Virus record (IMG/VR): IMGVR_UViG_3300017963_000048 | Span: 1 to 62,290 of that record | Reading direction: 5' to 3' (one strand) | Length of the DNA stretch: 62,290 nucleotides | From: a virus | In this document: positions 6,379 through 61,814 of the stretch, one piece after another | Numbering within the stretch: the first letter of the stretch is position 1 | Layout of the letters: each line of letters begins with the position of its first letter | Translations under genes and position numbers: made by a program | The notes under the pieces: generated by a model | Told to the model about the DNA's origin: nothing | The model's database searches: none | The model's input: only the letters and a program-made list of their open reading frames with translations

Positions 6379-6392
6379 GTTGCTGTAGCAAC
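6379..6392. repeat. parS-like palindrome site 1
   Basis: GTTGCTGTAGCAAC flanked by T and A (16-bp palindrome), between the endolysin and the next tail gene. Confidence 0.9.
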
Positions 6393-6453
6393 AGCACCAG
6401 CTGCTGCAAGATTTTTATGCGCACCAGGTGCGCTTAATTCAAAAAGTTTTGCG

Positions 6454-7242
6454 TCAACTTTTGAAGGTGTTATAACTCATTTCGCGGGTTTGAAAGACAA
6501 ATTGATTAGCATGAAAAGCACCATGCACTGAGCACCAAGCCATCCTCATTTCGCTTTCTTGGCCACCAGAATATTCACGGCCAATGCTGATGCCGGTGAA
6601 TGCACTGGTATAGAGTGAAGCGGGCACGCCAACCAGATTGCTGTCAGTGACTTCATTGACGGTGATATATAAACCAGCACCAGGGTCAAAGCGCCCACAG
6701 ACATAATAGAAATCACCTTCAGCAATGACCACGCTGCTGGTCACACTGACAATGTTGATGCCATCAGTGGTGACTTGAAAAATTGGCTGGTTTGCAGGAG
6801 TCATCGCAATGCGATAAGATCGGCTAGAAGCTTCACCCCATTTGCCAAAAGTGTGTGAAATTGCCCCACCAGTATTGACCAAACCGAAAAATCCAGTCAA
6901 TGTCAAACCACGTCTGGGAATTTCAATGTAGCTTTCAGTGCCAGTCACATTATATAGATTAGTTGCGCCCTGGTGATCACCGTCAAGATATTCAACATAA
7001 GGCCAATAATCGGGTTGATAAAAACCAACATCGTCATTTAATGACAATGGTGCATCGACTCCATTTTCATTAAATAGCTGACCAGCTTCATCAAAGTAAC
7101 CCGCCCACCAGCTGGCCAAGTGGGCCAGCTGTGTTTTCAGCAGTGGTGGCATGTGCGCCAAAGCCATTGAAGGATTATCTTTACTAAAGAAGTGGGTAGA
7201 CAATAATGCAGTCAGCTGGTCATTTTCTTTCTGTGCTGTCAT
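6454..7242 (-). CDS. Tail or fibre protein with LamG/ConA-like fold (262 aa)
   Basis: Residues 95-250 have the pattern of concanavalin-like (LamG) domains seen in phage fibres: YIEIPRRGLTLTGFFGLV, FQVTTDGI, DFYYVCGRFDPG and YTSAFTGISIG. Such domains bind sugars or complete fibre tips. The start overlaps the previous gene by four bases (ATGA). It is encoded between the tail-tip protein and the endolysin, where receptor-binding proteins usually lie. Confidence 0.65.
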   Translation of the reverse strand: MTAQKENDQLTALLSTHFFSKDNPSMALAHMPPLLKTQLAHLASWWAGYFDEAGQLFNENGVDAPLSLNDDVGFYQPDYWPYVEYLDGDHQGATNLYNVTGTESYIEIPRRGLTLTGFFGLVNTGGAISHTFGKWGEASSRSYRIAMTPANQPIFQVTTDGINIVSVTSSVVIAEGDFYYVCGRFDPGAGLYITVNEVTDSNLVGVPASLYTSAFTGISIGREYSGGQESEMRMAWCSVHGAFHANQFVFQTREMSYNTFKS

Positions 7243-8444
7243 TTGATGCCTTTCAAGCCCATGCGAGCAATCATCTGTGATAATCTTTGGATCTTAACAC
7301 CATTGACACTGTAATCGTAAGGCGCAGTATAGCTGGCCGTTTCAATAAACATCACGCGCCGATCATCAGTCAAAACTGTTGCATCTAACAGTGGTGTGGC
7401 CGGAAAAGCGTTGCGTGCTATCAGCCATTTTCCTGGCAATACGTTCCACGGCTCTACTACATGATCAGTGCCAAAGTCAAGCAGCCTAGATTCCTCACCA
7501 ATTCTTAAAGCATATTCGGCCTGTGTCGGAATTGGTTTATAACGTGCCACCCGATTGGCAAAAATGCCAAATGTCCAGCGCTCGAAGCTGGCACCACCCT
7601 GTGTTAACAGTTCACTGATGATCGTTTGACCAGTGCGCGACTTGTCATCAAGCCTGCGCACCAGAACTGGATTAGTGTCAAAGTCAGTGCTGTCCACAAT
7701 GCCATTTGGATCAGCTGCCAAAACTAACTCTAGCTTGCTGGTGGGTGTGCCACTGATGGTGGTGACTCCTGGTGTGTTGTCATTATAGTAAAATTTTTCT
7801 AAGTAATGACGCAGCCCCAAACACTCTAACTGAATGCTAACTTGACCAGCTGAGAACTGCACACTTTTTTGGTCGTCATTTGGCCAAGCATTTTCCAATA
7901 GATAAGTATCTCTGGCTTGCTCAGCTTCATTGTAAACTGGTGTGGCTGTGGTATCCACCAAAGCCTCGCCTGCATTCAACACCAGCATGTGAGTGCCATA
8001 TTTCGCAATCGAGTCAGTGTCTTGCACAATGATTGTAAAGCGCTGCGCACCTTTCAGAAAAGGAGTGTGCTCAACATAGATAGGCGTATAAGTGGCAATA
8101 ATGTCATTAGAAATGTCTAGCAGTGGCCCAATGGTGCTGGTCAATTCACTCTGCACAAACGTGATCTGGTTGACAATGCCAAGCCAAATCTCATTACCTA
8201 ATTCATCCGTTACCTGAATGATGTAACCAAGCCCTTTCTCATACCAGTCAGAAGCTGTGAAAACATCAGTGCTGAAACCCATGCTGGCAGCATCAAAACC
8301 ACCATCAGCCAAAATGCTGTGGGTGTATGAGGCCAGCTTTTCAGCTAAGCTGTTATCAATCTCTTTGGCAAAAGGGTCAAAGGTGGGATACCAGCTTGGC
8401 TGGTAGACTTTGACAATGATGCCTGTGTTCTTCAAAATGGCCAT
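7239..8444 (-). CDS. Tail-tip / baseplate hub-like protein (401 aa)
   Basis: Follows the two large tail genes after the tape measure, the usual place of the siphovirus hub (Tal/gp27-like) protein. It is beta-rich, with a repeated GIVNQITFVQSE-type strand pattern and a DDKSRTGQTIISELLTQGG helix typical of hub proteins. No catalytic residues seen. The stop of the previous gene abuts this ATG (TAGATG). The call is by position and overall pattern. Confidence 0.55.
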   Translation of the reverse strand: MAILKNTGIIVKVYQPSWYPTFDPFAKEIDNSLAEKLASYTHSILADGGFDAASMGFSTDVFTASDWYEKGLGYIIQVTDELGNEIWLGIVNQITFVQSELTSTIGPLLDISNDIIATYTPIYVEHTPFLKGAQRFTIIVQDTDSIAKYGTHMLVLNAGEALVDTTATPVYNEAEQARDTYLLENAWPNDDQKSVQFSAGQVSIQLECLGLRHYLEKFYYNDNTPGVTTISGTPTSKLELVLAADPNGIVDSTDFDTNPVLVRRLDDKSRTGQTIISELLTQGGASFERWTFGIFANRVARYKPIPTQAEYALRIGEESRLLDFGTDHVVEPWNVLPGKWLIARNAFPATPLLDATVLTDDRRVMFIETASYTAPYDYSVNGVKIQRLSQMIARMGLKGIK

Positions 8445-11177: not shown

Positions 11178-13877
11178 TTATCTCATCTCACTTCTAATGA
11201 CACGCCTGACCACACTTTCAACTTGCGCAGGGGTCATGCCAGCAAAGCTGTTTTGCATGCTAATGTTGGCAGTGCGGTTGCTGACATTGGTGGTGGTCAC
11301 TGGTGCCAAGCCATTTTGGGGCTGCAAACGATTCAAGCTTTGTGCTAATGCTGGCATGTTGCTCTTAGCAAGAATATTCATTTGGGCATTGATCTCTTTG
11401 ATACCTTCAGCCAAAGGCACTGGTGACTCTTTAGTATAGTCTGTTAGTTTGGGCATGTTTCTAATGCGGGTGGCAATAGTGCTCAACCAGCTTGCAAAAG
11501 TGCTCAATAAACCATTGATGGTTTTGATTCCTTCTTGTAGTCCAGCAAGAACACCATCACGCAGCCATTCAATTGCTGGTGACAAGTCTAGATCAATTTT
11601 CTCCCAAACATCATTCAGCCAGCCCCAAACTTCCTCAGCTGCTAAGCTCCAATTATTGAAATAAGCGATCAAGTTTTCGCTGACATAATCACCCAAAGCT
11701 GTGGCCACTTCAATCAACCCTTCCACCGCTGGTGTGACATAAGTATTTAACCAGTCAGTGAAGCCTTCCCACATGGGCACAATTTTTTCGTCATACCACT
11801 GTTTCGCAGTGTCAACTAAAGTTGTCCACGCTTCACTGATTTTTGCAAAGCTTTCACCCGTAGTTGTATCCCACTTGGTCACAATGCTATCCCAAAGCGT
11901 TGAAAGCTTTTCCACGATAGCAGCTTTCATGGCTGCCACCTTTTCAGTCATCATGGTGGTTATGCCATCCATGCCTGTGCTGAGCGCATCACCCAAGCCA
12001 CCTAACGGCCCACCACCAGCACCAGCACCACCACCACCACCAGCAGCACCAGCCGCGGCCGTGGGCGCATCACCCATCAATTCACGATACAGTTGCAACA
12101 TTTGGTTGACCGCATTTTCTTGACTGGTCAATGAATCTTCCGCAGCTTGCTGCTGCTCTTTGGCCAGTTGCAAAGCATCTTCAGCTGCTGCTGTTTCGGC
12201 AATCGCGGCTTGCTCAGCTGCACCTGATGCCGTTACCATTGCAAGTTTATCATTCAGCTCTTGCTTGGTGCCACCTTCCCGCAACAGTTTGTTATATTCG
12301 GAAACTTGCTTCAGAGTTTCATCTGTGGCTGCATTTTCACTTTGACGTGCAGCAGCTAAGCGCTGCTCTGCTGAAGTCACGGCATCTGTTGCTGTAGCAA
12401 CGGCAAGCTGACCTTCAGCCAGCTTGACCAGTTCAGGCCCAAATTCACCAGCTGATTTTCCTAAGCTTTCAAAAGCACTGGTCAAGTCACCACTGTCAAT
12501 GCCAGCAGCAATTTGTTTGCTAATGTTTGCAAATATGCCACCAGCAGCACCTTCACCAATGCCACCAGTTTGCTCGAGGAACCCCAAAGCTTGCTTAAGT
12601 GGTGATTGTAAATCTTTCAGCATGCCAAACTCAGCATCAGTCATGCCTTTCACATATTCATTCATCGCACCCATGCCCCACTTGTCAATATCGGGGGCCA
12701 CTTTAGGTGGTGATCCTGGTGCCATCCAGCCAGTCAGCATGCTGGTCAAAGCATTCATAGCCCACACCAGCACGCTGCTGATCGCGTCCATGATGCCACC
12801 CGCAAACTGCTCGATTAAGTTGAACCCCCATTCAAAAGCACTGTCAAGCGTGCCACTGAAAGCACCATCCACAGTGGTCACTAATGACTGCATGACATCA
12901 CCCACCAAGCCAATGGCAGCAGCCACTCCATCAGCCATGAAGCTGGCTGCGGTGCCAATCTTCACAAAAATGTTTTGGACCTCACCACCTTGCAAAGCAC
13001 TGTCAGCAAACTTTTGCAGCAAGTCAGCCCAAGCACCTTGCACTGTGGCCAGTGCAGGCTGAAGTGCAGTGCCTAGAGTATTTTTCAAATTGGCACTTTG
13101 GGCATCTACCCTGGCCATCTGCTCGGCAGCAGTCAGCTGGTCACTGCCGTAATCTTTCATCAGCTGCTGACTGGCTTCAACCGTAGCATTCAGCACTGCA
13201 ATCTGCTCTTGTTCGCTGCTCAGTTGGTCTACAGTGATACCTAATTCAGTGGCCAGCTTATCTTTAGCAGCAGCCATGTCAAGCACTAATCCAGTATTGT
13301 CAATCAGCAGAGGCGAGCTGCGTTTGATGCCTGTCACCAGTGACTGGAACATGAAGTCAAACTCTTGGCCAGTGTTACGTGCTGCAACTCTGGCACCACC
13401 AATCAAAGCAGGAAGCGCATTGCCAAACTCTTGGCCGAAGGTTTGGGTGGCACCAGTCAGAGCCACATTTGCCTTTTGCATCAATTCCCAATCATTCAGC
13501 ATGCCACCAGACGCAGCGCGCATCTTGTCAATACTGACACCATATTTGCCCGCGTTAGCTTCAAACCCCAAACCAATGCCGTAGAGTGGAGCAGTTTCTT
13601 TGGCAATGTTGTTAAGCGTTGAAATGACTTTGATGCCCCCGGCTACAATCGCAGCAAAACCAGCCACCACAGCCACTGTAGCCGCGGCAGCCACTGCAAA
13701 GCCACTGCTGAGTGATCCACTCGCGATTTTTCCAATGCCACTAAAAGAGCTTTGCGCTTTTTTTCCAATGCCCATCGTTTCAGCCATTTTTGCAGCCCAC
13801 TTAGCTTGGCCAGGTAGAAATCTTTGGTTCTGCCAAATCGCGGCCACACCAACTTCGTTAGGTTTTTGGCTTGTCAT
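11178..13877 (-). CDS. Tape measure protein (899 aa)
   Basis: Sets tail length and is ejected during infection. Evidence: the longest helical protein in the tail region, directly downstream of the two overlapping chaperone frames. A hydrophobic segment at about 55-85 is rich in Ala, Val and Gly. Long Gln/Ala-rich coiled coils and Trp-rich repeats (residues 640-760) alternate with a Gly/Ala linker (AGGGGGAGAGGG). The ATG at 13877 is preferred because CGAGGTTGAAA precedes it. A parS-like palindrome lies inside the gene at 12388. No lysozyme or peptidase domain was recognised. Confidence 0.88.
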   Translation of the reverse strand: MTSQKPNEVGVAAIWQNQRFLPGQAKWAAKMAETMGIGKKAQSSFSGIGKIASGSLSSGFAVAAAATVAVVAGFAAIVAGGIKVISTLNNIAKETAPLYGIGLGFEANAGKYGVSIDKMRAASGGMLNDWELMQKANVALTGATQTFGQEFGNALPALIGGARVAARNTGQEFDFMFQSLVTGIKRSSPLLIDNTGLVLDMAAAKDKLATELGITVDQLSSEQEQIAVLNATVEASQQLMKDYGSDQLTAAEQMARVDAQSANLKNTLGTALQPALATVQGAWADLLQKFADSALQGGEVQNIFVKIGTAASFMADGVAAAIGLVGDVMQSLVTTVDGAFSGTLDSAFEWGFNLIEQFAGGIMDAISSVLVWAMNALTSMLTGWMAPGSPPKVAPDIDKWGMGAMNEYVKGMTDAEFGMLKDLQSPLKQALGFLEQTGGIGEGAAGGIFANISKQIAAGIDSGDLTSAFESLGKSAGEFGPELVKLAEGQLAVATATDAVTSAEQRLAAARQSENAATDETLKQVSEYNKLLREGGTKQELNDKLAMVTASGAAEQAAIAETAAAEDALQLAKEQQQAAEDSLTSQENAVNQMLQLYRELMGDAPTAAAGAAGGGGGAGAGGGPLGGLGDALSTGMDGITTMMTEKVAAMKAAIVEKLSTLWDSIVTKWDTTTGESFAKISEAWTTLVDTAKQWYDEKIVPMWEGFTDWLNTYVTPAVEGLIEVATALGDYVSENLIAYFNNWSLAAEEVWGWLNDVWEKIDLDLSPAIEWLRDGVLAGLQEGIKTINGLLSTFASWLSTIATRIRNMPKLTDYTKESPVPLAEGIKEINAQMNILAKSNMPALAQSLNRLQPQNGLAPVTTTNVSNRTANISMQNSFAGMTPAQVESVVRRVIRSEMR
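12388..12401. repeat. parS-like palindrome site 2
   Basis: GTTGCTGTAGCAAC inside the tape measure gene. Confidence 0.9.
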
Positions 13878-17556: not shown

Positions 17557-18579
17557 TTATATCGAAGCGCTGCGATATAAAACCATGTCACTGATGGCAT
17601 TCCACACAAACCAAGCACCATCAGACAAACCAAAGGGACACGCTTCACGCTCCGGTGTGTAGTTGGTGGGCGTGTTGCGATCACGTTCCCATAAAGCTTT
17701 GATGCCTCGACAACCACAAATAGGATTAGGCATCAAAGTGTGCGCCAAACGTATAATCAGATCAGCTGTGGCACTGTCAAGCACTTGCAAGCCAGCCTGA
17801 TAATTGACACTCAATTTGTCACCAGGAGGGCAGCTGCATATGGGAATGACATCAATGGTGCCTAAATAGCTGTTACGGATATAAACACAGGCGCGGCTGC
17901 TAGATTCAATACAGCTGCAATCATGGCCAAGCAATGTGGCTTGCGTGGTGGTGTCACAGCTTTCTAGTCTGACATCTAATTCGTCAGCAAAGTTGTTGAG
18001 ATCAGTATAATCTAATCCACTGATGCCATTATTCCAAAAAGCTGGCTTGACCAAACGGCAGCGGGGAATGCTGAAAACATAAGTATCGTTTACTCCACCT
18101 GCGTTAAACACCACGCTGCTGGCTTGTACCTCATAATCACTATTAGGATGAAAAATGTGCATGTCATTTTCAGCACCAGCTGCATAGGTGCCAGCTGGAA
18201 CACTGATGGTGATGGTGGCCGGATCAGCTGCATGATTGACTGGTGTTGCTGTAGCAACACCAGCCCAAGCTTGCTGACCAATGCACGTGACCATGCCCCA
18301 TTTCAAATTTAAGCGTGGCCGGTAGATAGATTCTTCAGCCACAAACCATTTGGGGCTGAGTGGATAATTTAATTGTCGTTCAATCTTTAGTTGGGCATCA
18401 TCCAGATAAGCGCTCAAAGCATTGCGCTGCGCTTGCGTCCAAATGTCAGGACAGGCAGCATCTTCACCAGCTTTGGCCACACCAAAAAACGCGCATTCAG
18501 GAATACCATTGATTAGCGCATAGAGCGAGATCGGAATACCAGCGTGAGGCGTGATGTCAAGTGCACTTGGTACAATCAT
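17557..18579 (-). CDS. Head-tail connector-like protein (340 aa)
   Basis: The N-terminal half has the helical start (DIWTQAQRNALSAYLDDAQ) seen in gp6-type adaptor proteins. It is interrupted by a beta-rich insertion (about 105-165, encoding the parS-like palindrome as VATATP). The Cys-rich C-terminal part contains CSCIESSSRACVY, CSCPPGD and CGCRG. The Cys pairs could bind zinc or form disulphides. Assigned from gene order (before gp10-like) and length; the large insert and cysteines are unusual for adaptors. Confidence 0.5.
   Translation of the reverse strand: MIVPSALDITPHAGIPISLYALINGIPECAFFGVAKAGEDAACPDIWTQAQRNALSAYLDDAQLKIERQLNYPLSPKWFVAEESIYRPRLNLKWGMVTCIGQQAWAGVATATPVNHAADPATITISVPAGTYAAGAENDMHIFHPNSDYEVQASSVVFNAGGVNDTYVFSIPRCRLVKPAFWNNGISGLDYTDLNNFADELDVRLESCDTTTQATLLGHDCSCIESSSRACVYIRNSYLGTIDVIPICSCPPGDKLSVNYQAGLQVLDSATADLIIRLAHTLMPNPICGCRGIKALWERDRNTPTNYTPEREACPFGLSDGAWFVWNAISDMVLYRSASI
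18245..18258. repeat. parS-like palindrome site 3
   Basis: GTTGCTGTAGCAAC within a longer perfect palindrome (CTGGT and ACCAG arms), inside the connector gene. Confidence 0.9.
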
Positions 18580-24830: not shown

Positions 24831-25432
24831 GTCAATTGCTCCTCAAGCCAACTGATTAATGTGCTCCGCTGCTGGCCTGCTTGCTCAGCAACTAACAGCG
24901 CGGCATAATCTTCTTTGGAAAAATGGTCTAGCAGTTTGATCTTGGTCACGCTTAGCTCTAAGGTGGCTTCAACTGCCAAATCAACGTCCTCAGCGGGGGG
25001 TGTTGCTACAGCAACAGCATTGGCTGTGCTGACGGCTTCAGCTGCACCAGTTTCAGTTTCGGGGCTGGGCGCTTCAATTTCGGGGGTTTCCTGCGCTTCA
25101 ACTGCTTCAGATAATTCAAACACCAGCAAGCCATGTTTGCGCAGCTGCAACAGTCCTGGTTGGTTTGAACGTGCAGTCTCTAAATCTTCATTCTTGACTT
25201 GCACCTGAGCGCGTGACAAACCTGCACGATATCTGGTGCCACTCACCGGCCCGAAATAAGTTTGCGTGCCCCAACTGCGCCCCACATATTTCAAAACTGT
25301 GTGACCATCTTCAACTTCGTCCACAGTAGGCACTGCTTGCTGGCCATCGTAGATTGTATTCATAACACTGCTCCTTGAATCATTTGATCTAACAGTGGGC
25401 GCACTGCGCACACCACCACCACAACACGGCAT
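24827..25432 (-). CDS. Capsid-adjacent protein with Cys/Gly N-terminus (201 aa)
   Basis: Starts MPCCGGG, a short N-terminal motif seen in many phage proteins encoded next to the capsid gene. Then comes a beta domain (TYFGPVSGTRYRAG), an acidic Ala/Glu/Pro linker that contains a parS-like palindrome (coded VAVATP), and a C-terminal helix similar to helix-extension domains (SWLEEQL). Two possible starts both have ribosome-binding sites: 25432 (GAGGAGTTTTATC) and 25366 (AAGGAGCAGTGTT). The longer is given. Function unknown. Confidence 0.6.
   Translation of the reverse strand: MPCCGGGVRSAPTVRSNDSRSSVMNTIYDGQQAVPTVDEVEDGHTVLKYVGRSWGTQTYFGPVSGTRYRAGLSRAQVQVKNEDLETARSNQPGLLQLRKHGLLVFELSEAVEAQETPEIEAPSPETETGAAEAVSTANAVAVATPPAEDVDLAVEATLELSVTKIKLLDHFSKEDYAALLVAEQAGQQRSTLISWLEEQLT
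25002..25015. repeat. parS-like palindrome site 4
   Basis: GTTGCTACAGCAAC with flanking T/A, inside the linker of the capsid-adjacent gene. Confidence 0.9.
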
Positions 25433-29612: not shown

Positions 29613-31281
29613 CGTCAGCCTCCCACGCAGGCGGGTCAAGCAGCTGTGCAAATTCTGGTGTCTGCCGGTTGGCTGTGGCCACCGCTCGATTGACATCTGC
29701 TTCCGTGATGTCAAAATCTTCACCTTCATAAAGCGCCTCAGTTTCAGCTTGACGTTGCACCACATAAGACGGCACCGCGTGGCTGCGTCTTTGTAGTAAG
29801 TTTTCCCCACTTTCCCAGAGCACCTGCACCCTGCGCTGTGGATAATGATAACGCACCACTTGTTCGTGCGGGAAAAGCTCAGCAGCACGATGAATGCGTG
29901 GGCTGCTGAGCAATTCATCACGCTTGCGCCTAAGTGCCATTTGTGACTTTGTTGCTACAGCAACAGCTGCATGTGCACGCTCCACAGCCCCACCTTCATC
30001 ATCGTCAATGATGGAAGGTTCCTCTTCCTCGGTCCAAGCCGGGTCAATAATGTTTTTAGATGCCAGCAAAATGCGAAACTCCTCACGTGAGATACCACCC
30101 TGGCCATCATTGCCAATGGCCGCTTCGCGCACAGTTCTGAAAGCTGTGGCCCAAGCTTGCGTCACTGCCGCGGCACTTATTTCACTATCATCGTCTCGGT
30201 CATCAAATTCAAACACCACGCTGCTGGGCGCAATGTCGGGGCGCATGATCGCATCTGTGAATGCCAGCGTGACATTTTTGGCACCCTTGCCACTAGCTTT
30301 GACGTGCTGAATGTCTGACTCGCCTGATCTACCCAGACCACCATATTTGACCGGGTAAAATTCGCTCGCATCATAGCCGAAAGCCAAAGCATATCCGTAC
30401 ATTAACAAACTGGTGAATACTTCACGATCAAAGTCACGTGGCAACTGACTGAGGGCCAATAGCTTGCCATCAATGTCTCGGTCACCACTGGCCAGCACAG
30501 CCACCGAGTCATAATATTGCCAGTTCTCACCCTCTAAATCTTGTTTACGCCCTAGCATAGCAGTTTTAAATTGCATTTCGGTGATGCCCTTCAGTAGCAT
30601 GATGCCGCGGGGTGCTTGGGCACCTAATTCTTCTTTGTCATGCAAGTGCACTGCGATCATGATCTGTGCCAAGTCAATGCAGCGTGACACTGCACAATAG
30701 CCTAAACCATTGTATTTCTCATCAGTGCTGACCTGACTGGCTGTTCTCAGATAATCGGTCGCCTTCCATTTTTGCAACTTGCCTTTTTGCGGTTTATATT
30801 TAATAGGATATTCGACATCACCAGTCAAAGCACAACGCGAAGAGTCAAGATGAAATAAACCACGCAGCGCGCCCATTTCACCAGCGCGCCCCAATTCAGC
30901 AGCCCCACCGAAATCTGTATTGTAGTAATTCTGCGCAAACGCCCCAAACCCCATGCGCCAACCAATCAAATCTGGAAACAGCACCCAATTGTGCAGCGCA
31001 TTGCTGAAGCGTATCGCTTGATTCCTGCCACCAGTCACCGACCACCCTCGATTGGCATCTATACTGGTGGCACCCAATAACACACCCCCCAAATGTGGTT
31101 CTAGCTTGGGGAAGTCTAGCAGCCAGCTGTCACGCTTGCGCGAGTCAGCTGCATAATCTGGCACGTCCATGCCTTTGATGTTTTTCTTGTACCATTGCAA
31201 AGTGCTGGTGAAAAATTCGTCAGCTTGCACGTCAACAGAAAAGCGTGGCTGCTTGGTATCTTGATAGTTTTGGTCACTCAT
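29599..31281 (-). CDS. Portal protein (560 aa)
   Basis: Located between the large terminase and MuF genes, with the length and mixed layout of siphovirus portals. Segments LRGLFHLDSSRCALTGDVEYPI, YALAFGYDASEFYPV and the helical GISREEFRILLASKNIID match the portal wing, crown and clip areas. It forms the dodecameric DNA gate at one capsid vertex. The acidic C-terminal tail (about 390-560) contains the parS-like palindrome as codons for VATK. The ATG at 31281 is preceded by GATGAGGTGCAAA. Confidence 0.82.
   Translation of the reverse strand: MSDQNYQDTKQPRFSVDVQADEFFTSTLQWYKKNIKGMDVPDYAADSRKRDSWLLDFPKLEPHLGGVLLGATSIDANRGWSVTGGRNQAIRFSNALHNWVLFPDLIGWRMGFGAFAQNYYNTDFGGAAELGRAGEMGALRGLFHLDSSRCALTGDVEYPIKYKPQKGKLQKWKATDYLRTASQVSTDEKYNGLGYCAVSRCIDLAQIMIAVHLHDKEELGAQAPRGIMLLKGITEMQFKTAMLGRKQDLEGENWQYYDSVAVLASGDRDIDGKLLALSQLPRDFDREVFTSLLMYGYALAFGYDASEFYPVKYGGLGRSGESDIQHVKASGKGAKNVTLAFTDAIMRPDIAPSSVVFEFDDRDDDSEISAAAVTQAWATAFRTVREAAIGNDGQGGISREEFRILLASKNIIDPAWTEEEEPSIIDDDEGGAVERAHAAVAVATKSQMALRRKRDELLSSPRIHRAAELFPHEQVVRYHYPQRRVQVLWESGENLLQRRSHAVPSYVVQRQAETEALYEGEDFDITEADVNRAVATANRQTPEFAQLLDPPAWEADDDQT
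29951..29964. repeat. parS-like palindrome site 5
   Basis: GTTGCTACAGCAAC with flanking T/A, inside the portal gene. Confidence 0.9.
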
Positions 31282-33870: not shown

Positions 33871-33884
33871 GTTGCTACAGCAAC
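33871..33884. repeat. parS-like palindrome site 6
   Basis: GTTGCTACAGCAAC with flanking T/A, at the tip of a long imperfect inverted repeat (AAAG.GCCCA.GCTGC arms, about 33846-33918) between the small terminase and transporter genes. Confidence 0.9.
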
Positions 33885-39228: not shown

Positions 39229-39242
39229 GTTGCTATAGCAAC
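39229..39242. repeat. parS-like palindrome site 7 (TA centre)
   Basis: GTTGCTATAGCAAC with flanking T/A; the only copy with a TA centre, hence a perfect self-complementary 16-mer. Confidence 0.9.
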
Positions 39243-44955: not shown

Positions 44956-44969
44956 GTTGCTGTAGCAAC
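44956..44969. repeat. parS-like palindrome site 8
   Basis: GTTGCTGTAGCAAC between the AAA ATPase and zinc-ribbon genes. Confidence 0.9.
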
Positions 44970-47180: not shown

Positions 47181-47194
47181 GTTGCTGTAGCAAC
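47181..47194. repeat. parS-like palindrome site 9
   Basis: GTTGCTGTAGCAAC extended by ATGCCC / GGGCAT arms into a 26-bp perfect palindrome next to the tandem repeats. Confidence 0.9.
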
Positions 47195-49975: not shown

Positions 49976-49989
49976 GTTGCTGTAGCAAC
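49976..49989. repeat. parS-like palindrome site 10
   Basis: GTTGCTGTAGCAAC with flanking T/A, in the divergent promoter region. Confidence 0.9.
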
Positions 49990-50065: not shown

Positions 50066-50119
50066 GGCACTAGCACCTGGCACCAGCCAGCTGCACAAAA
50101 AATATGCGGAGGCGTTTTT

Positions 50120-51737: not shown

Positions 51738-51812
51738 TCAACAGATAAACTTTTGATGATAATTTTATAATGACCAACTAACTTGACACACACAAACTGA
51801 GAGGAAAACAAA

Positions 51813-54063: not shown

Positions 54064-54078
54064 ATTCAAGCCAGTGGT

Positions 54079-54092
54079 GTTGCTACAGCAAC
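54079..54092. repeat. parS-like palindrome site 11
   Basis: GTTGCTACAGCAAC in the centre of a 30-bp perfect palindrome (CCAGTGGT arms), between the ParB operon and the lipoprotein gene; it has no T-run, so it is not a terminator. Confidence 0.92.
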
Positions 54093-54115
54093 ACCACTGG
54101 CCAAGCTGGTGAATT

Positions 54116-55084
54116 ATGAAAAATAGACTTTATGCACTTGCGATCACAATCTTATATCTGGCAGCTGGCTGTGTGCCACTGCCAGAAGCACCACCAGCCA
54201 ATGCAGCTGATGCCGTGGCACGTGTCACGCAGCAAGCTTGGGAACTGAGTGGCACCAGCACTGCGGTCAGTGTCATGCAGCGTGCAGCCACAGGCACTGC
54301 GATCATTGGCACTGCACGTGCTGAAAACCACCACGCCACACAAACCCAAGAAATGATTGACTTCGCTAACGATCAAGCCACCGGCACCGCGGCCAGTGCC
54401 ACACAGCAAGCCCAAGCTGCTTTGAACGTTTTCAACACGCAGCAGGCTGAAGCTGAAGCCACAGCCACACAGCAAGCTAATGAGCAAGCCACAGCCGTGC
54501 AAGCAGTGCAAAGCACGCTGATCAGTGGCCAAGCCACAGCCACAGCTGAAGCTGAAGCACGTGCTGAAGTCAAAAGCAATGTGATAGGCGCACTAGTGGT
54601 GGTGCTCTGCACTGGTTTGGCAATTTTGGGCATTTGGTTTGCGTGGCGATTAAGCCAAGCTAAACTGCGCAAAGCTAACTTGATCTTAGATGCACGTGGC
54701 AATCCCACACACCAGCTGATCAATACCAAAGACGGTTTGACGGTGATCGACTTGCAGCGCAGCGCAGCACCACACTTCACTGTGCAGCGTGATGGCCAAA
54801 TTCTAGTGCCTCCGGGACTCGATGCCCAAGCACAAGCCGAATATCTATACCAGTTGACCATGATAGAGTTGGTCAAAGCAGCCAGTCAACGTGGTGCGGT
54901 TGACTTGCAAACCATGCAAGATATTATGAATAAAGCACGCCAAAACAGCACTGCTGAAGCACCAGCTGAAGCTGTGCACGCTTTACCCGCCAATATCGTC
55001 CCAGTGCCACCAGATGACCAGCGTGTGAGCACTTGGGTGCAAGAAACGATTAATGACCAAGTGATTGAAGGAATGAGCAAATGA
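54116..55084 (+). CDS. Lipoprotein with inner-membrane span and cytoplasmic domain (322 aa)
   Basis: Signal peptide with lipobox LAAGC (Cys19). Next come a long Ala/Thr/Gln linker with ATATQQA repeats (coiled coil, residues 30-155), then one membrane span (about 157-180) and a soluble domain including VIDLQRSAAPHFTVQRDGQ. The lipid anchor plus a second span makes a loop outside the cell. Linkers of this kind are typical of Chloroflexota. Coupled to the FtsK-like gene by ATGA, so it may anchor that ATPase. Confidence 0.7.
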   Translation: MKNRLYALAITILYLAAGCVPLPEAPPANAADAVARVTQQAWELSGTSTAVSVMQRAATGTAIIGTARAENHHATQTQEMIDFANDQATGTAASATQQAQAALNVFNTQQAEAEATATQQANEQATAVQAVQSTLISGQATATAEAEARAEVKSNVIGALVVVLCTGLAILGIWFAWRLSQAKLRKANLILDARGNPTHQLINTKDGLTVIDLQRSAAPHFTVQRDGQILVPPGLDAQAQAEYLYQLTMIELVKAASQRGAVDLQTMQDIMNKARQNSTAEAPAEAVHALPANIVPVPPDDQRVSTWVQETINDQVIEGMSK

Positions 55085-56514
55085 ATACTCAGACGAACTA
55101 TCCCCCAAGCACACCACATGTGCTGCCATTGCAAAAACGTGCAATGGTGCAAGCACACCGCGCAGCCTACAGCTTCAGTGCTGCGCTTAGCAGCATGGGC
55201 TTTGTGCCTGAATATGAGGCACAATATGTCACCAGCATCAATGGAGTAACACTGCTTTTTTTGGTAGTTGATCAAAGACGCGAGAGCAAGCAGCACAGTG
55301 CAGCTGCGCTGCAACTACTCAAAACCCGGGTGCCCTGGCCGGTCACGAAAATCAAGAGCACTGGAAAAGTTGTTTATGCCGTCACACTGCATGGTCAAGC
55401 CACGCTGCCAGATATGCTGCCATTGGTTGACATTCAGCACGATCACGTTTTGTTTGGTGCAAATCCTTGGGGCAAGCAAGTCAGTGAAAGCTGGCAGCGC
55501 TTTGGCCATGCTCTAGTGGTAGGCATGTCACAATATGGCAAAACCAACTTTCTGCGCTTAGTAGTTTTCCAAGCACTGAAACAAGGCCACTTGTGCTGGT
55601 TGGGTGATCAGTCACAAACAGCATTCCCCATGCTGGTCAATGCGCCCCATGTGGCTGCTGTGGCCAAGCGTGACCAATATGAAAACATGGTCATTGAAGT
55701 GCATAACGAAATGCAAAAGCGGGAAGCGCTTTTTGCAGCAGATCAATGGTTCCCTGAAAACTTGCAGCAATATAATCAGCATGCAGAGCAGCACTTGCCA
55801 CGTGTGCTGCTGGTGCTTGACGAGTTCAATGGTGCGGTCAAACATTGGGGCAGCACCAGCACGTTTTTCAAGCTGGTGGATGCGCTTATTTGTGAAGGTT
55901 TGAAATTTGGCATCCACGTGGTGCTGGCCAGTCAAGAGTGGCAAAAATCAACACTGGGCAATCCACGTGAGCAGATGCATACCATTATTGGCTTTCGCAT
56001 GGCCAATGCTAATGTGGAGCACAGCTTAGGCATTGCGGGTGCTGCTAAAATCCCACCAGATGGCAGAGGCATTGCCATCAGTGCGCAGCATGGCATTTTC
56101 AAAGCTTATTTCATGCGCAAAGAAACTTTGGTTAAGTTGGCTGGTCAACTTTTCAGTGATCACATTTTGCAAGTGCTGCAAGCTGCTATTAATCAAGAGG
56201 GGCAGGGGAGTGGAAAGGTCACACAAGCTTTCCTCAAGCTGCATGGTTTTGGCACTGCTGAAGCACGCAACACCATCAATGAATGGGCTGCACGTGGTTG
56301 GCTTGAAAAGCGCAGCGATTTAAATAATGCACATTATATGACCCCTTTGCTGAAGGGTTTGGTGGCTGAAAACCTGAAAACACCACAAACCGTGGAAACC
56401 CAGAAAACCAACTCTGACGATGATGAAATTATGATCACAAACTTATTAGAGCCGATTGACTTTGAAGAAAACCAATCTGAAAACCTGAAAACCTTACCAA
56501 ACATTGAGGAGTAA
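55081..56514 (+). CDS. FtsK/HerA-like DNA translocase ATPase (477 aa)
   Basis: Walker A GMSQYGKTN near 150, sensor-type DQSQTAF, Walker B LLVLDEFN near 245, and a later LASQEWQKSTLG (hexameric FtsK/HerA/VirD4-like family). The N-terminal 100 residues are a separate beta domain; no membrane segments. The C-terminal 100 residues include FLKLHGFGTAEARNTINEW, winged-helix-like, as in the FtsK gamma domain. It could pump DNA for partition, conjugation or packaging-related tasks. The adjacent genes code for membrane proteins. Confidence 0.8.
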   Translation: MNTQTNYPPSTPHVLPLQKRAMVQAHRAAYSFSAALSSMGFVPEYEAQYVTSINGVTLLFLVVDQRRESKQHSAAALQLLKTRVPWPVTKIKSTGKVVYAVTLHGQATLPDMLPLVDIQHDHVLFGANPWGKQVSESWQRFGHALVVGMSQYGKTNFLRLVVFQALKQGHLCWLGDQSQTAFPMLVNAPHVAAVAKRDQYENMVIEVHNEMQKREALFAADQWFPENLQQYNQHAEQHLPRVLLVLDEFNGAVKHWGSTSTFFKLVDALICEGLKFGIHVVLASQEWQKSTLGNPREQMHTIIGFRMANANVEHSLGIAGAAKIPPDGRGIAISAQHGIFKAYFMRKETLVKLAGQLFSDHILQVLQAAINQEGQGSGKVTQAFLKLHGFGTAEARNTINEWAARGWLEKRSDLNNAHYMTPLLKGLVAENLKTPQTVETQKTNSDDDEIMITNLLEPIDFEENQSENLKTLPNIEE

Positions 56515-56518
56515 AGTT

Positions 56519-57226: not shown

Positions 57227-57265
57227 ATGCACAAAAAATATATATATATTCCTTCATAATGTAGC

Positions 57266-57295
57266 TTTACATCCCTATTAACAGAATGATACAAT
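57266..57295 (+). promoter_or_regulatory. Promoter for the 57.3-59.4 kb operon
   Basis: TTTACA, 18-bp spacer, TACAAT. The predicted start of transcription lies only a few bases before the ATG at 57306. Confidence 0.7.
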
Positions 57296-57305
57296 CACAA
57301 AAATT

Positions 57306-57791
57306 ATGCCAAACCACATGACTGATTTTCATTATAGTGATTTCTACTGGCCTATCACCTGGCGTGACCGATCGGTTTTCATACGCGGTGAAGCTGAGCA
57401 AGCCTATACAAATAACCAGCTTGCTGAAGTGCGCGGCCCATGCTGCATGTGCCAAGAAGAATTAGGCATTCAGGCAGAAATAGTGCTCATTCCTAAAAGT
57501 TTTCATATGGTCACACCGTGGGGGGATCCTGGTTTATTTGGTTGGGGTTGCGATACTTGCTTGATTCCTAGCATTGGCATTTTAGCAGTCATGTGTGAAA
57601 ACTGCACTGACTTGCCTACTTCAGAAATCACCATGTACATTTTTGGTCCCCTCGAGTCTGGTTGGCGTGTGCTAGTAGAGCAGGCGCAAAACTTCACGCG
57701 GCCCATTTTTCACTCGCCAGATTTTCACCGAGGTATTTTAGATATTCGCAGCAGTCAAAAAAATTGCTGCGAGACAGGAAGGAATTCATGA
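57306..57791 (+). CDS. Zinc-binding hypothetical protein, nearly leaderless (161 aa)
   Basis: Three CxxC pairs (CCMC, CDTC, CENC) near 46, 82 and 97. The promoter leaves almost no 5' leader and no ribosome-binding site, so this is probably a leaderless message like that of the 2163 gene. A later Met (residue 5) is an alternative. Overlaps the next gene by ATGA. Confidence 0.6.
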   Translation: MPNHMTDFHYSDFYWPITWRDRSVFIRGEAEQAYTNNQLAEVRGPCCMCQEELGIQAEIVLIPKSFHMVTPWGDPGLFGWGCDTCLIPSIGILAVMCENCTDLPTSEITMYIFGPLESGWRVLVEQAQNFTRPIFHSPDFHRGILDIRSSQKNCCETGRNS

Positions 57792-58072
57792 ATATCCCAT
57801 ATCCACCACCAGCCACATTGCCACCATACCCTGGCCCTGTTGCTACAGCAACACCACTGGCCACAGCCACAGCCACCAGCACACCAGTCACGCTGCCCAC
57901 CAGCACGTTTTTGCTGCCAGTTGGCCCACCATCACAAGTGGGCTTGCTAGAGTTCACAGCCAGCAGTGGTGGCTTTGACGTGGCTTTGATCTTTGCAGCT
58001 GGTGTGGTGCTTGGCTTGCTGCTTGGTGCACTGTTTTGGTATCTGCTGAAGCGCAAGTTAAAGAGGTCATGA
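57788..58072 (+). CDS. Pro/Thr-rich single-pass membrane protein (94 aa)
   Basis: The N-terminal 50 residues are a Pro/Thr linker (VATATPLATATATSTP), part of which is written by the parS-like palindrome. One membrane span (about 67-88) and a basic tail follow. There is no signal cleavage site, so the linker is predicted to lie outside. The style is typical of Chloroflexota proteins. The ribosome-binding site is AGGAAGGAATTC. Confidence 0.7.
   Translation: MNIPYPPPATLPPYPGPVATATPLATATATSTPVTLPTSTFLLPVGPPSQVGLLEFTASSGGFDVALIFAAGVVLGLLLGALFWYLLKRKLKRS
57839..57852. repeat. parS-like palindrome site 12
   Basis: GTTGCTACAGCAAC inside the linker of the membrane-protein gene. Confidence 0.9.
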
Positions 58073-58073
58073 A

Positions 58074-58913
58074 ATGAGAAACTCGACACACAAACCACGC
58101 AAAAAAAGTTTGGTGACAGCTAAAAGCATAGCACAAGCGCTGACCAAGCTGCCAGCTTCAGCACCAGCTTCAGCTGCCAAGCAATACCAGTGCAGCATTT
58201 GCCAAGATGTGGGGTATCTGCGCTATGACTTGCCCACTGATCATGCTGACTTTGGCAAATTGCAGCCCTGCCAATGTAAAGCGAAAGCCATTGCTGACTT
58301 CAAAAACAGGAATCTGTTTTCAATTTGTCAGCTGGATGATCTTTATGGCTTGCGCTTTGAAAACTTCAATCCAAATGGCTTGAATGGCTTGACCACTTCA
58401 CAGCGCAAATCTGTCAATGAAGCTTTTCGCAAATGCAATGAATATGCCAAAGAACCTGATGCACCAATGGGGTGGCTGCTGCTGGTGGGCACCTTTGGCT
58501 GTGGCAAAACACATTTGGCTGCTGCTATTGCCAATTTTATGGCTGAGCGCAAACACGTGCAAACGCTGTTTGTGACTGTGCCTGCATTGCTGGATCAGCT
58601 GCGCAACACATATGACACCAAAGAGCAAACCTTCACTGACTTAATGGAACAGATTCAAGCTGTGCAGTTGCTGGTGCTCGATGACTTTGGTGCTGAGCAG
58701 CCCACCGATTGGGCCAAAGAAAAGTTATTTCAAATTTTGAATCGCAGATATATCAGTGCAGCACCCACAGTGATCACCAGCAACTTAGCACAGCAAAAAA
58801 TGGAAAATCTGTATCCGCGTATCTATTCAAGAGTGCGTGACTCTGCACTCAGCACCATTGTCATCATTGAAGCTGATGACCAGCGCACCAAGAAACCAAA
58901 AAGGAAATTATGA
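58074..58913 (+). CDS. DnaC/IstB-like helicase loader ATPase (279 aa)
   Basis: N-terminal zinc finger (CSICQDVGYL..., CQCK) as in DnaC/DnaI-type loaders. Then Walker A VGTFGCGKTHLA near 137, Walker B LLVLDDFGAE near 199, sensor TVITSNLAQ, and a closing VYSRVRDS-type arginine finger. It loads a replicative helicase on DNA; the phage encodes no helicase, so the host one is presumably used. The start follows AAGAGGTCATGAA. Confidence 0.85.
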   Translation: MRNSTHKPRKKSLVTAKSIAQALTKLPASAPASAAKQYQCSICQDVGYLRYDLPTDHADFGKLQPCQCKAKAIADFKNRNLFSICQLDDLYGLRFENFNPNGLNGLTTSQRKSVNEAFRKCNEYAKEPDAPMGWLLLVGTFGCGKTHLAAAIANFMAERKHVQTLFVTVPALLDQLRNTYDTKEQTFTDLMEQIQAVQLLVLDDFGAEQPTDWAKEKLFQILNRRYISAAPTVITSNLAQQKMENLYPRIYSRVRDSALSTIVIIEADDQRTKKPKRKL

Positions 58914-59365
58914 AAAATAAAAAAGTTAAAGTCATTTTCCCGGCTTTGTCACATCAGCACCATAATTTCAAAAAGCAGCGCACAGTGGCCAAACAGAATG
59001 CAGTCACCAGCAAACCACCACCAGTGGCCACCACGCTGTTGCAATGCGCAGTGCTGCATGCGGTCAACTTCTACACTGGCAGCACTGCCAAATGGCAGGC
59101 ATTGGCTGCATGTGGTGCCACTAACTTGCAGATCAGGGAAACTTTTGAAATTAACATGCCAAGCATGGGTGGCGGTAACATCAAATTTGACGGCCAGCAC
59201 GCGTGGGTGCGTGCCACACGCAAACCACCACGTGTGTGGGTGAGCACCACCAGTGTGCTGCCAGACATTGACAAAACCCCGACAATCGCGGGGCTTGACC
59301 TGATCAAAATGGTTCGTGAATTATATGAAATTGGGGCACCACCAAGCTTGGATATCCCATTTTGA
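58910..59365 (+). CDS. Hypothetical basic protein (151 aa)
   Basis: No family recognised. The N-terminal 40 residues are basic; the rest is alpha/beta with a FEINMPSMGGGNIKFDG segment. Overlaps the DnaC-like gene by ATGA. Could help in replication by position. Confidence 0.6.
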   Translation: MKNKKVKVIFPALSHQHHNFKKQRTVAKQNAVTSKPPPVATTLLQCAVLHAVNFYTGSTAKWQALAACGATNLQIRETFEINMPSMGGGNIKFDGQHAWVRATRKPPRVWVSTTSVLPDIDKTPTIAGLDLIKMVRELYEIGAPPSLDIPF

Positions 59366-59415
59366 CTATCCGCACCATAAAATTATGATGACAAGTTTAT
59401 CGAAGGAAGTGCAAG

Positions 59416-59700
59416 ATGAGTTTTGTTAATTGGGTCATTGACAGCTTGGCGAGTGAAGATGTGATTGATCTGTATTTCGTGCTTAGTGACTTAAAAGATA
59501 TTTTCTTGACACCATTGCAATGGGCGCAGCAATGGTGGGGTGACGCGGCCACCAGTCAAGTCAATTGGGAGCACCTTGACCAATATGAATCCATCGAAGC
59601 TGCCTATAATCCTTACCAAGCAGCCCAAGATTTTTATGACCGTACGGGCATTAATCCTTATACTGGTGACGAAACCAGCATAGCCAAAACCGTTTTTTAG
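59416..59700 (+). CDS. Hypothetical acidic protein (94 aa)
   Basis: Soluble and Trp/Tyr-rich with no recognised family. The start is supported by GAAGGAAGTGCAAG. It lies between the replication operon and a lipoprotein gene. Confidence 0.6.
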   Translation: MSFVNWVIDSLASEDVIDLYFVLSDLKDIFLTPLQWAQQWWGDAATSQVNWEHLDQYESIEAAYNPYQAAQDFYDRTGINPYTGDETSIAKTVF

Positions 59701-59710
59701 GAGAATCATC

Positions 59711-59872
59711 ATGCGAAACAAAACTAACAGATTCAAGCAAGCTTTCATTATCTTGTGCGTGCTGCTTAGCATGCTTCTGGCCAGCTGTGAGTGGGGCAAG
59801 TGCAAAAACTGCAACGCAGCTGGCACGCCCATGCCCACACTGGCACCAGCTGAGCAGCCACCAGGATGGTGA
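59711..59872 (+). CDS. Small lipoprotein (53 aa)
   Basis: Signal peptide with lipobox LASC (Cys26), then a short Cys-rich head (CKNC) and a Pro/Thr tail TPMPTLAPAEQPP, again in Chloroflexota style. It would sit on the outer side of the cytoplasmic membrane. Superinfection exclusion is a common role of phage lipoproteins but is not shown here. Confidence 0.65.
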   Translation: MRNKTNRFKQAFIILCVLLSMLLASCEWGKCKNCNAAGTPMPTLAPAEQPPGW

Positions 59873-59875
59873 TCA

Positions 59876-60199
59876 ATGGCACGCGCACGCTCGACACAAC
59901 GCAGACCAGCCATGCCCCAACTGTGGAACATTCAGCGTGCAGTTACTTTTGCTCGTTGGTGGGGCTTTTTGCTTGGTGTGGTGCTGTCACAATTGGTGAC
60001 ACGCTATACTGAAAGCACCATTGATTGGGAGTATATCCCGCTGACCTGGATTGCTTTGTTTGTGGTCACAGTCAGCAATGCAGTGCATTATTTGGTGATT
60101 GCAGAAACTTATACACGTTATAAAATGACCAGAAATTCAATGATGCAACGCATGGCCGACCAGTCAAAGGACAAGAAAGCATGGTGGCGAAAAGGCTGA
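59876..60199 (+). CDS. Small membrane protein (107 aa)
   Basis: Basic N-terminus, two membrane spans (about 26-43 and 54-72), charged helical C-terminus. The start is set by AGGATGGTGATCA, overlapping the lipoprotein end. Followed by a terminator. Confidence 0.62.
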   Translation: MARARSTQRRPAMPQLWNIQRAVTFARWWGFLLGVVLSQLVTRYTESTIDWEYIPLTWIALFVVTVSNAVHYLVIAETYTRYKMTRNSMMQRMADQSKDKKAWWRKG

Positions 60200-60286
60200 C
60201 CAGCTGGCTGCACTTGCGCTGAGCCCACAAAGCTGCTAAGATATTAGGTAGATAGCATTCTGCATGATGCTTATCTCCTTACTTCC

Positions 60287-60320
60287 AAAGCGCTGCTGAC
60301 ATGGCAGCGCTTTGTTTTTA
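60287..60320 (+). terminator. Intrinsic terminator
   Basis: AAAGCGCTGC / GCAGCGCTTT stem, then GTTTTT. It closes the 57-60 kb operon. Confidence 0.88.
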
Positions 60321-60351
60321 AAATTCCCCCGATTCATATGGGGGTAAGCAC

Positions 60352-60380
60352 TTGTCAAATTGTAAAGCTGGCTTTATAAT
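60352..60380 (+). promoter_or_regulatory. Sigma70-type promoter with palindromic operator
   Basis: TTGTCA, 17-bp spacer, TATAAT, with TGTAAAGCTGGCTTTATA at 60361-60378, identical to the operator at 627. The inverted repeat CCCCC-N9-GGGGG lies about 8-26 bases upstream of the -35. Confidence 0.88.
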
Positions 60381-60432
60381 GTCATTTGTAAGTTGAAGCA
60401 CACACACACATAGGCACTGGAGGCCAAAAAAA

Positions 60433-60966
60433 ATGACTGAGATTATCATCACCACACAGCAGTTTGAAAGCTTCATTGAAGCACAGCGCAAGCAGCAAGC
60501 TGGCAGCTGCCATGCTGAGCACTTGCAAGGGTCCAAAGTTGTCATCAGATATATAGAACTTTTCAATGGTGTCAAAGTGCAAGTCAATGCCAACTATTTG
60601 CACAAAGCCAGTGACTATTGCCAAGAGCACGCTGGCCAATGGTATTTTTCTCAATACAGCAGTGAAGCCACACACGTGTGCATAAAGTTGCAGTCCAGCA
60701 CCTACAATTGCTTTGGCACTGGTGCACGCAGTAACGACACACATGAAGCTGCACGCCAAGCCATTGTCAATTTGTGCACACATGGCATGACTAGCACTGA
60801 AGTCATTGAAGCCATGCCACCACTGCAAAACATGTTTGGTGAATGGTCACTTGAATTTAAGTATAAAATTGCCAATCTGCACAATGCTGAAACTGAAGCC
60901 AAGCCAGTCAAAAATTTGAATGACTTTGACAGCGCTGCTGATTACATTGCATATTTGAAAAGCTGA
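60433..60966 (+). CDS. Hypothetical early protein (177 aa)
   Basis: No family recognised. Mixed alpha/beta, with several Cys and His (CQEHAG, CIKL, CFGTG). Start fixed by the GGCACTGGAGGCCAAAAAAA leader. Same regulon as the genes at 697 and 1628. Confidence 0.7.
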   Translation: MTEIIITTQQFESFIEAQRKQQAGSCHAEHLQGSKVVIRYIELFNGVKVQVNANYLHKASDYCQEHAGQWYFSQYSSEATHVCIKLQSSTYNCFGTGARSNDTHEAARQAIVNLCTHGMTSTEVIEAMPPLQNMFGEWSLEFKYKIANLHNAETEAKPVKNLNDFDSAADYIAYLKS

Positions 60967-60994
60967 AGCACTCACAAAAAAAGGAGAAATTATC

Positions 60995-61795
60995 ATGCAA
61001 AATTTTGAAAATCCATACACACTTGATGAAGGTTTTGACGTTGAAGTAGGTGACTTGGTGGCTGAAGTTAACAGCATTAGCTTTGATGTAAAGTCAATCA
61101 GCCGAGTCAAAGCGCTTTGGCGCAATGGCATTGCTGTGCTGGCCAATGGCAAAAAAGTCCGACCATCGAAAACTGGCTTGGCTGGTGAATTTGGTGGCCG
61201 CGGGTGCAATGGCAGTTTCACAAAAGTTGATTGGCAGAAAGAGGACTTGGCACGCGCTAACATGCGCAATTGGCATGAAAAGCGTGAATCCATTGCAGCT
61301 GAAAATGCTGCCAGACGCAAAGCTGCTTTGCAGCGTTATGCTGCACGCGTGGCACATGTGTGGGAACAGTGTGGTAACAGCTTCAATGCAGCCCAAGTGA
61401 TTGTGATTGAAAGCAGTGACACCAAGTTGATTGAGGTGCGCACATTGCCATTTTTGACTTATGCTGAAATTGAAGCATGCAGCACGCTTGACCAAGATGG
61501 TGTCACCAGCACACGCACCACAGTGCGGTTATATGTCAATGTACAAACCATCACACACTTTGACATTGATGACTCTGAGCGCATCATCCAAGTTGATCAC
61601 CATGCTTTAGGCTTCAGTCAATCTATGCTTGAATATGTCACTGAAACTGGTGAAACTTTCAGTGCCCACACTGGCAATAACCTGATCAATGTCAAGCGCA
61701 CTGACACACTTGGCATTGCTCAGCTGTTAGCTGGTGCCAGCTTGACAGTTGACTTTGCTGAAATTGTGTATGCTGCGGTTAGCGCAGCATATTGA
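60995..61795 (+). CDS. Hypothetical early protein (266 aa)
   Basis: No family recognised. The N-terminal beta domain (VGDLVAEVNSISFDVKSI) resembles a small KOW/SH3-like fold, with a Gly-rich stretch and an Arg-rich helix in the middle. The start follows AAAAGGAGAAATTATC. Ended by the palindrome site and a terminator. Confidence 0.65.
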   Translation: MQNFENPYTLDEGFDVEVGDLVAEVNSISFDVKSISRVKALWRNGIAVLANGKKVRPSKTGLAGEFGGRGCNGSFTKVDWQKEDLARANMRNWHEKRESIAAENAARRKAALQRYAARVAHVWEQCGNSFNAAQVIVIESSDTKLIEVRTLPFLTYAEIEACSTLDQDGVTSTRTTVRLYVNVQTITHFDIDDSERIIQVDHHALGFSQSMLEYVTETGETFSAHTGNNLINVKRTDTLGIAQLLAGASLTVDFAEIVYAAVSAAY

Positions 61796-61800
61796 AAAAC

Positions 61801-61814
61801 GTTGCTACAGCAAC
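61801..61814. repeat. parS-like palindrome site 13
   Basis: GTTGCTACAGCAAC just upstream of a terminator. Confidence 0.9.

Follow-up and report, generated by a model that had tools for sequence, protein, structure and literature searches.

Canonical parS sites are grouped around the origin and act in concert with ParA. What, then, is the role of a ParB protein and a dispersed set of palindromes in a viral genome where no ParA is found? The question is raised by IMG/VR record IMGVR_UViG_3300017963_000048, analyzed here over its whole length of 62,290 nucleotides (hereinafter, the window), which encodes a 677-aa ParB at position 51813 and contains 13 copies of one short palindrome. A first-pass annotation had read the palindromes as a "dispersed centromere or genome-organising array". 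The answer that we regard as probable is that they serve the ParA-less ParB of this phage as nucleation sites (parS), from which ParB clamps would slide to form a genome-wide coat. Binding of the 51813 ParB to the 13 sites appears likely from the sequence comparisons described below; we infer the sliding of ParB, the timing of its production and the effect of coating, and coating of the genome goes one step beyond binding.

An evenly spaced array of 13 palindromes

The motif GTTGCT-RY-AGCAAC is present in 13 copies in the window, compared to 0.04 copies expected by chance. In 100 dinucleotide shuffles of the window, the maximum count was one, and the other 59 permutations of the half-site, with the same architecture, had no matches combined. 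The consensus is (T)GTTGCT-RY-AGCAAC(A): the central dinucleotide is GT in six sites, AC in six and AT in one (hence RY in 13 of 13), an outer T is found in 10 and an outer A in 11 of the 13 sites, and nine extend to TGTTGCTNNAGCAACA.

The genome appears to be circular, or circularly assembled, with a length of 62,167 bp, given that positions 62168..62290 repeat positions 1-123 (a 123-bp direct terminal repeat). On this circle, the gaps between the sites range from 2,225 to 6,757 bp, with a coefficient of variation (CV) of 0.30, and are more even than under random placement by each of three measures (P of 1.1e-5 for the CV, 5.6e-4 for the smallest gap and 1.2e-5 for the largest gap). Seven of the 13 sites are intergenic, with the chosen open reading frames (ORFs) covering about 90% of the window (binomial P ~1e-4), and the remaining six lie within ORFs, five of these in one shared phase, reading VA[TVI]AT. 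Thus, most of what the first-pass annotation said of the array stands, namely the coordinates of all 13 palindromes, the non-random spacing of 2.2-6.8 kb (P ~1e-5), the presence of sites in both coding and non-coding DNA, and the extension of most of them to TGTTGCT..AGCAACA; its chance expectation of 0.004 was about ten times too low, and of the centers that it gave (GT, AC and TA), the first two are found and the third is actually AT. The centers also follow an orderly succession along the genome (three GT, three AC, AT, three GT, three AC), which is not significant by a hand calculation (~0.07 for a line, 0.18 for a circle).

The ParB protein and the palindromes of VarioGold-type phages

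The assignment of the 51813 protein to ParB is borne out by a match to HTH_ParB (PF17762, E 1.1e-14, 54.8 bits with a cut-off of 22.6); the match to ParB_N (PF02195) is partial, with a score of 22.6, below the cut-off of 26.3. The ParB_N motifs are GxxRxxA and ENxxR, and we take GNTRFAA and ENLQR to be the respective CTP motifs of the 51813 ParB. Binding of CTP and sliding of the clamp would be expected from the family to which it belongs. The closest sequences in PDB are Noc and chromosomal ParB, so that the earlier label "KorB-type" is not quite right, and a Foldseek search with the ParB model yielded Caulobacter ParB as the best match (E 2.9e-6), with Noc also found and KorB lower. No ParA-type ATPase was detected in the window by PF13614 or PF01656, in agreement with the first-pass annotation; the two models had matches in 14 of 14 control genomes.

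The residues that read parS or the Noc-binding site (NBS) are known for Caulobacter ParB and Noc (PMC7383237). By a hand count on the Noc alignment, these residues are largely changed in the 51813 ParB (P at 173 and G at 178), and the NBS residues of Noc, Q173, K179, K184 and R201 in the Caulobacter numbering, correspond to P, M, N and E, respectively. Accordingly, the site in the window is not simply a worn parS, and the match to parS at 10 of 16 positions, to which the first-pass annotation had pointed, is a weak argument. Canonical parS was not found in the window, the best match, with 3 mismatches, being TGTTGCACGTGCAACT at 8834-8849, which looks like a hybrid of the 13-site motif and canonical parS.

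Similar proteins are encoded by two phages, VarioGold of Variovorax (VG_p35) and Aval of Acidovorax (gp06c), both annotated as ParB-like and containing ParB_N and HTH, the CTP-motif residues and the four-cysteine finger seen in the window ParB. As in the window, no ParA is annotated in either phage and several palindromes are dispersed in the genome, namely six copies of GTGCA-N6-TGCAC in VarioGold and three exact copies of TGCACACGTGTGCA in Aval. VarioGold carries an integrase and attP. In an alignment of 87 ParBs (that of the window and 86 of the VarioGold type, which come from VarioGold, Aval, 80 viral loci and 5 bacterial ones, the last two groups supplying 85 ORFs, of which one shorter than 500 aa was dropped), the residues E67, G71, R74, E136, N137, R140, C366, C369, C381, C386 and K390 are invariant in all rows. 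The CxxC...C...C finger downstream of the HTH is thus common to the window ParB and the VarioGold-type ParBs, which share 20-24% sequence identity.

When an alignment of the VarioGold and Aval ParBs was used as the query, at least 80 viral and at least 80 bacterial loci were retrieved, and 80 viral loci, the five best bacterial ones, VarioGold and Aval were combined into a set of 87 loci (1.43 Mb) that includes near-duplicates. The family site, GTGCANACGTNTGCAC, is present in this set in 102 exact copies, and in 77 of the 87 loci with at most one mismatch; 20 permuted palindromes have no copies in the same loci. All 27 whole records, chosen among loci in which a site had been found, contain 3-8 sites at no more than one mismatch and none of the reversed pattern, and the ParA family PF13614 is missing in all 27. 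A recurrent family site inside parB overlaps the codons of the conserved finger (A-D-[VL]-C-T) and sites within parB were for this reason excluded from the tests of spacing and of upstream sites, while remaining in the counts for the 87 loci, the 27 whole records and the eight records discussed below. In VarioGold (L251), a palindrome with a changed center lies within parB, at 29452-29467.

The 91 sites located outside parB in 20 genomes (18 of the 27 whole records, taken for size, VarioGold and Aval), accepted with no more than one mismatch, or with two provided that the outer arms remain complementary, are spaced with a mean CV of 0.55 compared to 0.85 for random placement, and none of 5000 simulations was as even; because the 20 genomes are related, this pooled test overstates independence. 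A site is found 0.9-2.8 kb upstream of parB in 49 of 69 loci (of 80, the 11 in which parB is not at a fixed position were dropped), with a median pairwise identity of the flanks of 29%, near random, the identity of the sites themselves being in part a product of how they were selected. Nine exact copies of GTGCANACGTNTGCAC are present in the 23.8 Mb of five host genomes, two of the five genomes having none. Eight of the nine, in groups of five, two and one, are on contigs that match a parB locus by position, an assignment by contig rather than by mapped prophage borders, and the ninth lies 0.7 kb short of a contig end, in a contig whose last 10 kb holds phage-like primase, CII and repressor genes.

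A similar blind search for palindromes was applied to bacterial parB loci, using the 65 of 75 that span at least 8 kb. Repeated palindromes were found in 26 of these loci and none in 39, and the first-listed palindrome in 26 of 26 cases was of the parS type, GTTTCA or GTTCCA (one locus, L510, lists a second palindrome). Therefore a repeated palindrome that stands out by parB tends to be the site of that protein. The array of the window has parallels in a large group of phages with this ParB architecture, and its features are summarized in Table 1.

Table 1. Palindromic sites and putative early-block genes of the window
Feature	Position	Strand	Remarks
Site 1, GTTGCTGTAGCAAC	6379..6392		endolysin-like ORF 4928-6424, close to its 5' end
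Site 2	12388..12401		within 901-aa ORF 11178-13883; reads VATAT
Site 3	18245..18258		within ORF 17557-18579; reads VATAT
Site 4	25002..25015		within ORF 24827-25447; reads VAVAT
Site 5	29951..29964		variable stretch of ORF 29599-31296; reads VAVAT; relative L005 has other residues there
Site 6	33871..33884		intergenic
Site 7	39229..39242		center AT; in ORF 38301-39371; reads VAIAT; followed by T-rich DNA on the minus strand
Site 8	44956..44969		intergenic
Site 9	47181..47194		intergenic; terminator-like score (scanned part 44000-62290)
Site 10	49976..49989		divergent intergenic region preceding early genes
Regulator of Cro/CI type as read here, 115 aa	50120..50467	+	no Pfam or PHROGs match
ParB, 677 aa	51813..53846	+	HTH_ParB, CTP-motif residues, four-cysteine finger C366/C369/C381/C386
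Site 11	54079..54092		after parB; perfect palindrome with 9 further bases on each side
FtsK/SpoIIIE-like protein	55081..56514	+	downstream of parB, same strand
Site 12	57839..57852		intergenic
DnaC-like helicase loader	58074..58913	+	
Site 13	61801..61814		intergenic; adjoins intrinsic terminator at 61818; followed by a run of T on the minus strand

Weighing the explanations

In the mechanism that we propose, ParB dimers would bind the 14-16 bp site via the helix-turn-helix, and the 51813 ParB would close as a CTP clamp on TGTTGCTGTAGCAACA and then slide off along the DNA. Given that loading sites recur every 2-7 kb round the circle, such clamps could reach the whole phage genome. The coat would be specific to the phage's own DNA and would organize, mark or silence it instead of serving ParA-driven movement, with compaction, marking, silencing and protection as possible roles. 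The DnaC-like loader at 58074 suggests that parB belongs to an early replication block, and its position beside this gene suggests that the coat may act around replication.

Several observations weigh against this interpretation. The recognition helix of the window ParB is GKNPSTIRGMVR versus GKSRSYVYARLK, the commonest one in the VarioGold family, and the palindrome differs as well (GTTGCTRYAGCAAC in the window, 13 per 62 kb, versus GTGCANACGTNTGCAC, ~5 sites per 40 kb). The AlphaFold model of ParB is poor overall (mean pLDDT 51.7, exceeding 70 only in residues ~131-210). Within the VarioGold family, only 6 of 20 genomes are significantly even individually at 0.05, and the helix of site-less phages mostly resembles that of the site-bearing ones, with no clear link between the recognition helix and the presence of the site (9 of 10 site-less loci aligned). 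The nearest relative found, L005, a 4.7-kb fragment, lacks the exact site, and both the exact site and HTH_ParB are absent from the 18 terminase relatives searched. Terminator-like traits are seen at 3 of the 13 sites (47181, 39229 and 61801). Finally, the blind palindrome score separates the phages imperfectly. The window and 17 of the 20 VarioGold-family genomes exceed all 20 simulations under a Markov null; the other three show no excess, and an excess is also found in 4 of 7 ParB-less records and in 4 of 18 ParB phages of other kinds, Yong-DA, Versailles, Hedwig and Ewald (marginal). Five records (G002, G011, G017, Pioen and Taranis) were covered in part in this comparison.

Since the palindrome score alone is not specific, the evidence rests on the counts of GTGCANACGTNTGCAC by locus and by record, the spacing, the copies in host genomes, the sites upstream of parB and the absence of ParA. 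By inspection, the excess in ParB-less records comes down to three kinds of case: two near-duplicate records with terminators, a 10-bp word, and a score that is marginal. In the near-duplicate pair G001 and G002, TCAATTGCAATTGA lies between A- and T-rich tracts and was taken for bidirectional terminators; CCGAGCTCGG of G008 and G013 is a 10-bp word without flanking constraint, and the candidate in G007 is a repeat present in four copies, the flanks of which are similar. All three were rejected, by inspection, as counterparts of the window array. The 18 copies of CCGAGCTCGG in G008 (L317-L319) are evenly spaced (P 1e-4), and in the longer record G013 the spacing is not significant (P 0.34). None of the top four palindrome families of the 18 terminase relatives has seven-base arms. 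As to the VarioGold family, seven of the eight whole records from which a site-less piece had come have 1-7 matches at up to two mismatches, a weak result given that 3 of the 8 also have one match to the reversed control. A separate record that is listed as an Aphanizomenon phage, L253 (ON073792), mostly consists of polysaccharide genes along with rep, ParA and ParB, contains five copies of GTTCAGACRTCTGAAC and looks like a plasmid.

The strongest rival has the ParB-site part in common with our interpretation and differs in the outcome: ParB would load at the sites, slide and shut promoters, in a KorB-like, long-range repression serving lysogeny or timing. KorB of plasmid RK2 is a ParB-family CTP clamp that recognizes a 16-bp operator, acts over kilobases and silences promoters both close to its sites and distant from them (PMC11790492), and because such a clamp can silence distant promoters, we treat this explanation as a serious, even if rather unlikely, one. 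The intergenic location of seven of the 13 sites, above chance, speaks for it; the six sites within ORFs do not, and in 44000-62290 the four top-scoring promoter-like sites all lie clear of the palindromes. In RK2, KorA locks KorB near promoters, whereas in the window the spacing is even and no KorA-like partner is known, no search having been made for one. Even spacing would not be expected of promoter-bound operators and is better accommodated by whole-genome coverage.

Segregation of a plasmid-like prophage by ParB, with a host ParA or none, and with the sites as a dispersed centromere, is improbable in our estimate. The circular contig is compatible with it, and Staphylococcus and Streptococcus are said to segregate by ParB-parS without ParA (PMC10286716). 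Against this stand the lack of ParA in the window (PF13614, PF01656) and in the 27 family records (PF13614), the presence of many evenly spread sites, which segregation would not need, and the integrase of VarioGold, a phage with a similar array. Of the two senses of the "dispersed centromere or genome-organising array", then, the ParB-site array is the best supported explanation, and the segregation sense is disfavored by the lack of ParA and by such sites occurring in a phage with an integrase and attP. Chromosomal ParB-parS shares with the window the motif residues and a palindrome of the same size, but its canonical sites are clustered near the origin and work with ParA (PMC7333895), and the recognition residues of the window ParB differ. 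Noc of Bacillus, the best PDB sequence match, is a ParB paralogue with sites scattered over the chromosome (PMC4331003); it controls division by recruiting DNA to the membrane, and its four specificity residues are not conserved in the window ParB by the hand count.

Less probable still is an immunity repressor with stoperators, that is, a Cro/CI-type protein, such as 50120, binding the 13 sites as in cluster A mycobacteriophages. Numerous repressor sites across a phage genome are indeed known (PMC9283540), but in the accessible part of that source the site is asymmetric, whereas those of the window are palindromic, and the repressor is not described as a ParB. Moreover, such arrays accompany ParB in the VarioGold family, and the window offers other candidates for the operators. 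The spacers of strong sigma-70-like promoters at 629, 1551, 60363 and 61887 (two scored by the promoter scan and two read by eye) carry TAAAGCNNGCTTTA, which is probably the operator of an early regulator, and upstream of 50120 there are two copies of a separate repeat, GCTTTACAAGTTTAT, distinct from the 13-site motif, that has the GCTTTA half in common with TAAAGCNNGCTTTA. The repressor operators in the window are therefore likely to be a motif other than the 13 sites.

An origin of the palindromes as terminator hairpins or coding repeats, or as an artefact of composition, is very improbable: the terminator-like score of site 47181, the T content of the minus strand just past 39229 and 61801 (five or six T in eight bases), the VA[TVI]AT reading of five of the six coding sites in one phase and the terminator-like palindromes of two ParB-less relatives are outweighed by the other ten sites, with at most two T in the next eight bases on either strand, by the location of the coding sites in different ORFs and by the zero count for the 59 half-site permutations.

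Genomic context and significance

Judging from the terminase, the endolysin and the helicase loader, the window looks like the genome of a tailed phage. The main ORFs run leftward between ~5 and 50 kb, and the block to the right of these holds 50120, 51813, 55081 and 58074. ORF 29599-31296 is portal-like by its position next to the terminase and has no family match. Relatives of this phage are few. Megablast with the first 25 kb of the window against 50,697 phage records gave no match, and the 51813 ParB as the query found no relative in IMG/VR. The alignment search with the portal-like protein found L005 as the sole relative, and the terminase search found 30 IMG/VR loci with 40-56% identity, 18 of whose records share little else with the window. 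Among the matches listed in motif scans of IMG/VR, there were almost only single sites per stretch, which by our estimate is about the chance level for so large a collection; apart from those found with the terminase, the loci so gathered have almost no proteins in common with the window.

Other features of the genome include three near-identical terminator-like hairpins, AGCGCTGCCANNTGGCAGCGCTTTTTTT, at 531, 1489 and 61824, and an N6 adenine DNA methylase domain (PF02384) at 48930-49955. The protein encoded at 36011-38298 has amidotransferase-like and QueC-like PHROGs matches and adjoins a queuine tRNA-ribosyltransferase-like protein; together these are likely to form a putative 7-deazaguanine DNA-modification pair, presumably of the DpdA type.

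ParA-less phage ParBs are already known as annotations, but unexplained. The authors of a 2023 paper knew of no characterized phage encoding ParB alone (PMC10286716), a survey of the ParB fold in phages found consistent coencoding with a parA homologue for only one of the domain fusions (PMC12704722), and the paper on VarioGold annotates its ParB without sites, the accessible part containing no mention of "palindrom", inverted repeat or operator (PMC9658991). A search of literature listings, with preprints and most subscription papers outside its scope, turned up no report of dispersed sites for ParA-less phage ParBs. It is possible, and we suggest it tentatively, that in many phages ParB clamps, acting free of ParA and loaded at evenly spaced sites, cover the whole genome as a "self" coat, with a site sequence that differs by lineage. 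If such ParBs have their own dispersed arrays, the protein would be a genome-wide DNA-binding system rather than a leftover partition gene. Each such phage would then bring its own test, in the form of a predicted 14-16 bp site, and the ParB-site pairs could serve as orthogonal tags for imaging.

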